NCBI RefSeq assembly: GCF_000422845.1
Contig: NZ_AUGV01000022.1
Coordinates: 1 to 62,857 of the forward strand
DNA length: 62,857 bases
From: Oceanobacter kriegii DSM 6294
GTDB lineage: Bacteria > Pseudomonadota > Gammaproteobacteria > Pseudomonadales > Oceanobacteraceae
Reading direction: 5' to 3'
The notes beneath the pieces were generated by a model. It had not been told where the DNA came from. It searched no databases and saw only the letters and a list, made by a program, of their open reading frames with translations. The translations under genes and the position numbers were made by a program. Shown here piece by piece: positions 30,726 through 62,857 of the stretch. How positions within the stretch are numbered: the stretch's first letter is position 1; every line of letters begins with the position of its first letter.

Positions 30726-30810
30726 TTCCTGATTCCAGTTCCTGATTCCAGTTCCTGATTCCAGTTCCTGATTCCAGTTCCTGATTCCAGTTCCTGATTC
30801 CAGTTCCTGG
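30726..30810. repeat. 13-bp tandem repeat array, six copies plus a partial one
   Basis: The unit TTCCTGATTCCAG is repeated perfectly six times head to tail (30726-30803) and followed by TTCCTGG. It is non-coding and lies just after the fliD hairpin. Similar short arrays occur at 50147, 57668 and 62617. Confidence 0.95.
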
Positions 30811-52982: not shown

Positions 52983-53038
52983 CTGGTTTCCCTGTGGAGT
53001 TCCTGGTTTTTTGTTGTTGTCCCAAAGGCGGCCGACGC

Positions 53039-53247
53039 TATCAGCTATCACGCCGGGTCGGTACTTCAACTTACGGGACAGTCCATTCAAAAGTTGAAGT
53101 GATTTCTATTAACAACGCTGGTCTTTCTCTCTGTGGTCAAGAGGGTCCCTATCAGCTATCGCGCCGGGCCGGTACTTCAACTTGCGGGACAGTCCATTCA
53201 AAAGTTGAAGTGATTTCTGTTAATAACGCCGGTCTTGCTCTCTTTAG
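53039..53247. repeat. Tandem 111-bp repeat, two copies, each with a perfect hairpin
   Basis: A roughly 98-bp sequence starting TATCAGCTATC at 53039 recurs at 53150 with seven substitutions (period 111). Each copy holds the inverted repeat ACTTCAACTT ... AAGTTGAAGT (10-bp arms, 18 bp apart), identical in both copies apart from one loop base. The pair lies in the 379-bp gap between the divergent AEC gene and the TSUP gene, so it would be in the 5' leader or promoter of one or both. Confidence 0.9.
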
Positions 53248-60302: not shown

Positions 60303-61325
60303 ATGAAGCGGATGGGATGTGTAGGCAAGCTGGCAACATCCGGCACGGGTGAAGATCATTCCGCCGACATCGTCGGCCTGTTTAATGACCTCAGAGCCAT
60401 GCAGGGCGAGTCGTCGCTGCGTGGGGTATTTCTGGTTCACGGTCATGCATTTTTGCAGATACTGGAAGGCGAGCACCAGTGCATTGCCAACGCTGCGTAC
60501 AAAATCCGCCGTGATGCCCGGGTGGAAGACTGCGCCATTCTGCATGTGGGTGATATCGACGAGGCGTTTTTCAGCCACTGGAAAGTCAAATGCTTCCGCC
60601 CGGACTCGGCCGAGCATCGGCAATTTCTGGTTCGCATTCGTGACGAGGTGTTAGGCCCGGAAGTATTCCAGAACGAATTGGCTCGCAAGCGTTTCCAGGC
60701 GCTGTTTCCCAGTGCGCTCACTGATTTGGTTCCGGCAACACCAGAGAACGAAGTGTTTTCTGCGCCTGCCAGTGCCAACACCATTAGTAACGCCAGCACC
60801 AACACCTGCACCGGGGCCCCAGCCAATACCAGCGCTAACACCAGCACCATCAATAACGACCTCAAACAGCTCAGCTACAGCATTCATGCCTGGCCCAAGC
60901 CCGGCCAGATGAACCTGTCGCCACAAATCATGCGTTCTTGCGCCTTACTCAGCAGGCAACACATCAGCTACTCCGAATTGTTAAGCCGTGGGCTGTGGCA
61001 GAGCGTCAGCGAGTTTGAAGCCTTCTTGCAGCAACTGATGCGTCTGGGGGTGCTGGTTGCTCATCCAATGTCGTCGCCAGCGGTTGCCAGTGGAGCCTCA
61101 ATACGCAGCCGTGCAGAGTCACACACCTTTCCGCAGGCTAACGCTCGTGAGGTTGAGGGCAGGGTTAAAAGCAGGATCGAAAGTAAGGTTGAAAGCACGG
61201 CTAACCGAATGAACACAGCAGAGACTAGCCGTGAAGCGGCCACCGCCAGAGGTGACGCCACTGGCTCCGGCCGTTTTGGCGCCTTGATGCGCCGGTTTAT
61301 TTCATCCGCCAGAAAAGCGGGGTAA
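60303..61325 (+). CDS. Degenerate BLUF-domain protein, first gene of a GTPase/Roadblock operon
   Basis: ATG with GGAGG 6-7 nt upstream; 340 aa. Residues 1-115 fit the BLUF fold: [18 protein letters not shown] holds the conserved Gln52 and [17 protein letters not shown] follows, and FSHWKV keeps the Trp. The flavin-signalling Tyr of BLUF is missing (VGKLAT at that site), as is the conserved Asn (MQGESS). Photoactivity is therefore doubtful. Residues about 155-195 are an Asn/Thr/Ala linker. Residues 200-260 form a small helical domain ([20 protein letters not shown]). The C-terminal 80 residues are Arg/Ser/Ala-rich. The next gene starts 5 bp after the stop. Confidence 0.75.
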
Positions 61326-61330
61326 GGGCC

Positions 61331-62065
61331 ATGAACACAGCTGCAACACCAAACATCTACAAAAAGCTGGCGGTGGTCGGAGAAGTGGGGGCGGGGAAAA
61401 CCCAGCTGATTCAAACCATCAGTGAAATCTCGCCCTTCGCCACCGAAGCGCGTTCCAGCGTCGATATTGGCAAGGAATTCACCACGGTGGGAATCGACTA
61501 CGGCCGCTTATCGCTCGATGAGCACACCGCACTGGGCTTGTACGGGCTGCCCGGACAGCGCCGTTTCAGCATGTTGTGGGAAATGGTCAAGGGTGAACTT
61601 TGGGGGCTGGTGGTACTGGTCCGTTTTAAACCGCACGGCCAAACCGAGCAGGATTTACAGCAATTGGAACACCTGCTGGCGTTCTTTGAGCCGGGCCGTC
61701 ATCACATACCGGTGGTGGTGGGAATTACCCATAGCGAAGACGTCGACACAGCCGCATTGGAGCAGCTTAGCGAAGCGACCTTCGATGTTCTGACCAAACA
61801 TCAGGTGATTGCGCCCGTGGTGGCGGTAGACCCTCGACAGCTGGAGTCTTCGCTCACGCTGCTGGAGTTGATGCTGATCCTTAGTGAAGACGCCGACTGC
61901 GACCTGCATAACTTCGAAACCCAGTATCACGCGTTGCTGGATAGCCCTGACGCAGGTCCAGACGCAGGTTCCGACACTACTGATCCTCTTTCTGATACCG
62001 ATTCTATAAACACAGACTTTGCCAACACCGAGGCGATTGTCGCCCCACAACAAGGAATTGCCTGA
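61331..62065 (+). CDS. Small GTPase of the COG2229/MglA-like group
   Basis: This 244-aa protein has P-loop GEVGAGKT (about 17-24), an effector-type TTVGIDYG, and a G3 region [16 protein letters not shown]. That G3 matches the xGTPGQ..F form of COG2229 GTPases rather than DxxGQ of Ras. The G4 motif NKxD appears as THSED. The last 50 residues are an acidic Asp/Ser/Thr tail. GTPases of this kind pair with Roadblock proteins (MglA-MglB, conservons) to set polarity or signalling. ATG with AAGGG upstream; it is translationally linked to both neighbours. Confidence 0.82.
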
Positions 62066-62066
62066 T

Positions 62067-62519
62067 ATGTCACAGTCGACTTTTCAAACGTCCCCGCAAT
62101 CCGCCTTTCAAACGACCTTGCTGGGCCTGTTCGATGACTGCCTGCAACGCTATGCCGGGGCCGAGTGTGTGTGTCTCAGCACCACCGACGGCTTTCCGGT
62201 GGCCAGCCGCACATTGGCGCACATTCAGTTTGAAGCGGATGCCATGGCCGCGGCGTCCAGCACGCTGTTTTCGGTCAGTAATGCGGTATCGCAGCAAATG
62301 CTGGATCGGCCGTTTCGGGTTGCGTTTGTAGAGTCCGAACGAGGCAATATGGCGTTTGTGTCGCTGAGTGTGGGGCAGCAGGATTATGTGCTGACCATGT
62401 CGGCCAGCGATGAAATGAACATTGGTCAACTGCGGGCCTTTATCAATCGCTTGGCCCGTCAAATCGTGGAGCAATGTGAGGCACCAGAAGCGCCCGCTTC
62501 TCGGCTGGCGGCGAGCTGA
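62067..62519 (+). CDS. Roadblock/LC7-domain protein (MglB-like)
   Basis: This 150-aa protein is a single Roadblock/LC7 domain: an N-terminal helix, AECVCLSTTDGFPVASRTL, a long helix AMAAASSTLFSVSNAVSQQM, then strands ERGNMAFVSLSVGQQDYVLTM and a C-terminal helix. Such proteins dimerise and act as GTPase-activating partners or scaffolds for MglA-like GTPases. ATG lies one base after the GTPase stop codon, so the two are surely co-translated. Confidence 0.85.
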   Translation: MSQSTFQTSPQSAFQTTLLGLFDDCLQRYAGAECVCLSTTDGFPVASRTLAHIQFEADAMAAASSTLFSVSNAVSQQMLDRPFRVAFVESERGNMAFVSLSVGQQDYVLTMSASDEMNIGQLRAFINRLARQIVEQCEAPEAPASRLAAS

Positions 62520-62576
62520 GTGCTGCACTTGAAGTTGTGTTGATCTAATGTGAGCTGCGTTTAGACGTTTTAGCCA

Positions 62577-62602
62577 GCGGGCCTGCAATGGGCCCGTTTT
62601 CC
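62577..62602 (+). terminator. Terminator of the BLUF-like/GTPase/Roadblock operon
   Basis: CGGGCC and GGCCCG pair around TGCAATG-type loop sequence, followed by TTTTCC. Confidence 0.75.
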
Positions 62603-62616
62603 TGTTCCTGCTTCCA

Positions 62617-62733
62617 ACTCCCGACTCCCGACTCCCGACTCCCGACTCCCGACTCCCGACTCCCGACTCCCGACTCCCGACTCCCGACTCCCGACTCCCA
62701 ACTCCCGACCCTCAACCCTCAACCCTCAACCCC
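62617..62733. repeat. Heptamer tandem array: 13 ACTCCCG-type units then three ACCCTCA units
   Basis: ACTCCCG is repeated from 62617 to 62707 (13 units, one reading ACTCCCA), followed by three ACCCTCA units and ACCCC. It is strongly strand-asymmetric (pyrimidine-rich on top) and non-coding. The rest of the window (62734-62857) shows no gene. Confidence 0.95.
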
Positions 62734-62857
62734 GAGCTACAGCGCCTGCCACAGGCCGAGTCATTGCCCCTAAACCGACAAAATGTCGGAATCGTCTTTT
62801 ATTGGTCCACTTTTGATCTTGCCCAGTCACAAAAAGCTGCCAGACTGACGACTGTTT

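Follow-up and report, generated by a model that had tools for sequence, protein, structure and literature searches.

Group 3 MglA operons of beta- and gamma-proteobacteria were published by Wuichet and Sogaard-Andersen in 2014 (PMC4316618), and their function has been little studied. In these operons, a first protein consisting of a receiver-like N-terminal domain and a C-terminal winged helix is accompanied by an MglA-like GTPase and one or two Roadblock/MglB proteins. Here we compare with them an operon of Oceanobacter kriegii DSM 6294, located near the end of contig NZ_AUGV01000022.1, whose whole length of 62,857 nucleotides is the window analysed (G000:C17:1-62857, with G000 standing for this genome and C17 for the contig). 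Judging from sequence and predicted structure, this operon is a BLUF-type variant of the published Group 3 operon, filed as a variant because its N-terminal domain is BLUF, and not receiver-like, by Pfam and by fold.

The operon consists of three genes on the forward strand, separated by 5 and 1 bases. The first (60303-61325; Pfam, AlphaFold2, PDB fold match and alignment) codes for a BLUF-like plus winged-helix-like protein of 340 amino acids, the second (61331-62065; open reading frame (ORF), motifs, alignment and tree) for an MglA-like small GTPase of 244 amino acids, and the third (62067-62519; Pfam and profiles) for a Roadblock/LC7 protein of 150 amino acids, R1, which is MglB/CvnB-like and contains an Asp-Gly pair (TTDG). 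An original prediction, made by reading the DNA alone, had proposed exactly such a packed set of a BLUF-derived protein, an MglA-like GTPase and a Roadblock protein. Its outline agrees with our results: the ORFs and gaps are where they were expected, the first protein has a predicted BLUF fold, the GTPase has P-loop GTPase motifs and is conserved beside the BLUF gene, and the third gene belongs to a clear Roadblock family. Its further claim, that the trio is undescribed, stands only for the combination with BLUF, which we did not find in print; the plan itself is that of Group 3, and is also found in the same genome, where a second Mgl-type operon (L063 1928-4212, on contig C2) encodes a receiver-type first protein, a GTPase, a Roadblock protein and a fourth, Roadblock-like protein, R2.

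GTPase, Roadblock protein and their described relatives

The motifs of the window GTPase are G1 GEVGAGKT, G3 GLPGQ, G4 THSED and a G5-like DPR; its C-terminal extension is found in the window sequence only among the aligned relatives. G3 is GLPGQ in 11 of 11 sequences, and differs from the GTPGQ of MglA Groups 2-5 at the second residue only. G4 is without the usual Lys, as in Groups 2-3, and the His of the window's THSE is invariant (11/11), as are the Asp and Arg of G5 (DAR in Groups 2-3), with Pro as the middle residue in the window and Ala in locus L049. In G2 (TTVGID), Thr takes the place of the Group 1 arginine finger, as it does in Groups 2-5, and both T51 and T52 are invariant (11/11). 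We considered these atypical motifs as a sign of novelty and rejected this.

R1 scores 22.5 bits with the Pfam Roadblock/LC7 model, below the gathering cut-off of 23. Sixteen of its 18 orthologues match known Roadblock proteins at E <= 0.01, and the family profile matches CvnB5, the closest among solved structures, at 7.1e-7. The Asp-Gly pair, D41-G42, is invariant in all 18; one or two Asp-Gly Roadblock genes are characteristic of Group 3, and R1 is a gene of this kind.

With Group 3 MglA, the operon shares the gene plan, the winged-helix part, the GTPase motif deviations, the Roadblock Asp-Gly pair and the host class; it differs in its BLUF-like N-terminal domain, in GLPGQ instead of GTPGQ, and in the missing R2. 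Actinobacterial conservons (CvnA-D, Group 2) also combine GTPase and Roadblock genes, and provide the closest profile match of R1; unlike them, the window operon (BLUF protein, GTPase, R1) has neither the histidine kinase CvnA nor CvnC. The Group 1 system of Myxococcus, MglA/MglB, is likewise a small GTPase with a Roadblock partner, whereas the window GTPase lacks the Group 1 signature, with TT at the arginine-finger site beside the G2 Thr and GLPGQ in place of TVPGQ. A wholly unknown kind of system was rejected, the Group 3 plan being already published (PMC4316618). In the full-text literature searched, which covers few subscription papers, so that the absence is provisional, the combination of BLUF, MglA-like GTPase and Roadblock is undescribed; the terms BLUF, GTPase and roadblock occurred together in one optogenetics review only.

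The BLUF domain and the replacement of its photoactive tyrosine

The first protein consists of a BLUF-like N-terminal domain (about residues 1-100), a variable linker, a winged-helix-like domain (about 188-255) and a second linker, and ends in a conserved segment, RFxxxMRRF, at about residues 324-338. Pfam matches BLUF at residues 20-95 with 43.5 bits, and the AlphaFold2 model and its PDB fold match agree on a BLUF fold. The model places helices and strands at residues 190-255 with pLDDT above 90. The C-terminal half aligns with the receiver-type first proteins, and for the winged-helix part hhalign gives 90.0% with A4 and 96.4% with A5; in the same comparison, the BLUF domain does not align with the receiver-type N-terminal domains.

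We compared the core residues in 31 BLUF-type first proteins, 18 of them in the clade of the window and 13 in others, and in 18 stand-alone or neighbouring BLUF proteins from relatives. The site of the photoactive Tyr is Cys in 18/18 of the window's clade, and Tyr in 13/13 of the other first proteins and 18/18 of the stand-alone ones. The Asn is present in 14/18, 13/13 and 18/18, respectively, the Gln in 12/18, 11/13 and 18/18, the His of the DxRH motif in 0/18, 12/13 and 18/18, and the Met in 0/18, 7/13 and 18/18; the Trp is present in every sequence compared. The window protein has Cys6 (codon TGT, 60318-60320, forward strand; alignment and codon check), Gln34 at the Asn site, Gln52 and Trp93, so that the original prediction was right about both the missing Tyr and Asn and the retained Gln and Trp. 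The starts of the aligned ranges with AppA (1 to 16) and OaPAC (1 to 1) fit the register of Cys6.

Cys6 is one of eight invariant positions among 100 in the 18 sequences, whose mean pairwise identity is 38%, and its codon is TGC in ten and TGT in eight of them; from this invariance and the use of both codons, Cys6 is apparently kept by selection. A tree of concatenated operon proteins, computed after masking of the Tyr/Cys and His columns, unites all Cys operons in one clade (99/96), and the Tyr-bearing L083 is its sister (100/100); the BLUF-domain tree concurs (95/92 for the Cys clade and 97/93 with L083). Tyr is therefore ancestral, and Cys arose later, by a single change.

The DxRH His touches the flavin. 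Its loss in all 18, together with the Tyr-to-Cys replacement and the loss of Asn in the window, makes classical BLUF light sensing by the window's protein improbable, as far as sequence can tell, and a scaffold, thiol or redox role of the domain is likelier. That the window's domain is still an ordinary photoreceptor is highly implausible: it retains Gln52, Trp93 and the BLUF fold, whereas other residues stand in place of Tyr, Asn, the DxRH His and Met, and the photocycle is reported to need both Tyr and Gln (PMC4630285). A BLUF protein whose Tyr has been removed can, however, undergo photoreduction, and its control of the effector is then inverted (PMC4682037), so that a light or redox input without Tyr might still operate if flavin binds. 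The photoactive Tyr is retained in 12 of 27 operons, from Psychrobacter, Arenicella and others, and a blue-light-gated MglA-type switch is therefore plausible there.

Distribution of the module and apparent loss of the fourth gene

A contig scan with 11 GTPases as queries gave 62 loci, and the fetched loci were scanned by hidden Markov models. Of these, 27 are distinct loci with a clade GTPase score above 230, the same-contig duplicates L075, L082 and L207 being excluded. In 27/27, the GTPase is preceded by the gene for a protein with BLUF and winged-helix parts, and followed by R1. The BLUF and GTPase profiles were partly trained on the same loci, so that an independent count in genomes carries more weight. 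Among 293 genomes of the order, 11 contain GTPase loci scoring at least 260 bits, 12 in all, and 12 of the 14 full-length BLUF proteins (in 13 genomes) adjoin a GTPase; G306 has a short BLUF form without the winged helix. Among 369 genomes of the class, five loci of at least 240 bits were found in four genomes, all with the BLUF gene, and among 398 genomes of the phylum the O. kriegii genome alone passed 1e-22. In a GTPase tree of 103 sequences, a single branch (SH-aLRT 95) separates the 27 from the rest, and in a concatenated tree of 33 operons the BLUF-type operons have support of 99/97. The module, whose conservation beyond close strains the original prediction had left to be checked, occurs in several families. 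A chance neighbourhood was rejected, as 12 of 12 GTPase loci adjoin a BLUF protein; so was a conserved wider neighbourhood or adjacent pilus genes, with flanking families recurring in at most 3 of 26 loci, mostly in close relatives.

Other arrangements were also seen. An Arenicella-like genome has two tandem BLUF operons, the first without a GTPase gene (L210 114-4934); a canonical stand-alone BLUF gene is divergent from a BLUF-Mgl operon (L209 6414-7031); and in Marinicella (L085 3202-6298) separate BLUF and winged-helix genes occur with a receiver-type first gene, a GTPase, R1 and R2. BLUF-type first proteins are found with no GTPase or Roadblock genes nearby at L067 3288-4130 and L073 3224-4063, as is a BLUF-type protein without the winged helix at L072 5458-5958.

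R2 is present in 26 of the 27 operons: 15 have it after R1, and the other 11, from Psychrobacter, Arenicella and relatives, ahead of the BLUF gene. It is missing from the window alone; the single R2 of this genome is located in the C2 operon. Relatives of the genus have R2 after R1, with MarC next in O. mangrovi. In the window, R1 is followed by a terminator-like stem with a short T-rich tail (62576-62598, forward strand), of a type only slightly commoner than in shuffled sequences, and then, at the position of R2 in relatives, by 13.3 copies of ACTCCCG (62617-62709, strand unspecified; repeat search and comparison). A second heptamer array, 3.6 copies of ACCCTCA, accompanies it at the contig end (62617-62732). 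Elsewhere, the window has a tandem duplication of 1.9 copies with period 111 (53038-53243) and 6.5 perfect copies of a 13-base unit (30726-30809). The end of C17 overlaps the end of contig C3 exactly, by 213 bases. The R2-less interval so joined (window 62520-62857 plus L223 2985-4382) continues beyond the overlap with a glycosyl hydrolase 108 ORF and a GTA-type holin ORF, followed by MarC, which shares 84% identity with its O. mangrovi counterpart. With these ORFs between R1 and MarC, R2 seems to have been replaced by other DNA, unless the repeat array misled the assembly.

This replacement, the lost BLUF Asn, the long, low-complexity linkers of the first protein and the odd amino-acid make-up of the window row in the concatenated tree would suit a system decaying in this strain, with parts being lost and little function left. 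We consider this quite unlikely, since the three ORFs are intact, the window shares the eight invariant positions of the 18 Cys-clade BLUF domains and the invariant GTPase positions, and the R2 of the second operon could serve here. The original prediction did not mention R2, the winged-helix domain, the replacement of Tyr by Cys or the relatives whose BLUF core is intact.

Proposed function and significance

We regard it as somewhat probable that the first protein is a BLUF sensor-adaptor tuning a Group 3-type GTPase, independently of light in the window's clade, with type IV pilus activity or polarity as output. The proposal starts from the operon, the fold, the winged-helix part in common, the single GTPase clade, the one Tyr-to-Cys change and the loss of R2; from these we infer the protein interactions, the input signal, the GTPase control and the pilus output. 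The BLUF-derived domain, fused to the winged-helix part common to receiver-type first proteins, would most likely act with the Roadblock protein in adjusting whether the GTPase holds GTP or GDP, with R1 (and R2) acting as GTPase-activating proteins or co-regulators by analogy with MglA/MglB. The GTPase, in turn, would govern how the cell behaves on surfaces, the most plausible candidates being type IV pilus activity and polarity. Since Psychrobacter and Arenicella have kept most of the BLUF core, their module probably responds to blue light; the window's clade, with an invariant Cys in place of Tyr and changes at other pocket positions, should have no classical photocycle, and its domain may bind proteins as a sensor or scaffold that needs no light, possibly depending on thiol or redox state.

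Pilus behaviour is our best guess by analogy. BLUF proteins control twitching in Acinetobacter (PMC4844311), PixD of Synechocystis controls type IV pilus phototaxis via the PATAN-receiver protein PixE (PMC5812497), and a Group 3 MglB variant of Snodgrassella has been associated with colonisation, perhaps by way of pili (PMC11112851). Like these BLUF proteins, the window's would act upstream of pilus behaviour; unlike it, they have a canonical BLUF core, and the accessible text names no MglA-type GTPase for them.

Several observations weigh against this proposal. Foldseek alone, with the receiver-type model, gave no match below 0.001; the GTPase tree contains no named Neisseria or Xanthomonas Group 3 sequences; PilT is above the cut-off in 17/17 operon genomes, a weak point, as operon-bearing genomes only were counted; two of the 14 full-length BLUF proteins (in G268 and G230) have no GTPase nearby; the losses of R2 and Asn could mean decay; and the winged helix could point to a role in transcription. 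In the last case, the winged helix would bind DNA, with GTPase and Roadblock modulating a one-component regulator, as the authors of PMC4316618 read the receiver plus winged-helix architecture of Group 3. Some receiver-type members do match helix-turn-helix Pfam families (HTH_40 in 4/24, HTH_23 in 3/24), and the two BLUF proteins that stand alone would fit as well. We find it somewhat unlikely for the BLUF-type proteins, 21 of which gave no helix-turn-helix Pfam match apart from one to DUF2250; winged helices can also bind proteins, and, with flanking genes not conserved, no local regulatory target is visible. A bolder version of the sensor-adaptor proposal, in which BLUF displaced the Group 3 receiver and the resulting light-gated module, still light-competent in Psychrobacter and Arenicella, was later rewired, once, in the window's lineage into a Cys-based redox or flavin-adduct sensor, strikes us as unlikely.

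The module bears on the route by which BLUF proteins act on pili in heterotrophic bacteria and on what Group 3 systems sense. Its single operon brings a BLUF domain together with an MglA-type GTPase, and is carried by Moraxellaceae, a family with published BLUF control of twitching, so that the control of a bacterial Ras-like switch by light can be put to a direct test. The Tyr-to-Cys change, placed on the tree, offers an example from nature in which a photoreceptor has probably lost its photochemistry but kept its circuit; if the Cys-sensor reading is true, a single GTPase module would illustrate how a light receptor can become a thiol or flavin-redox sensor.
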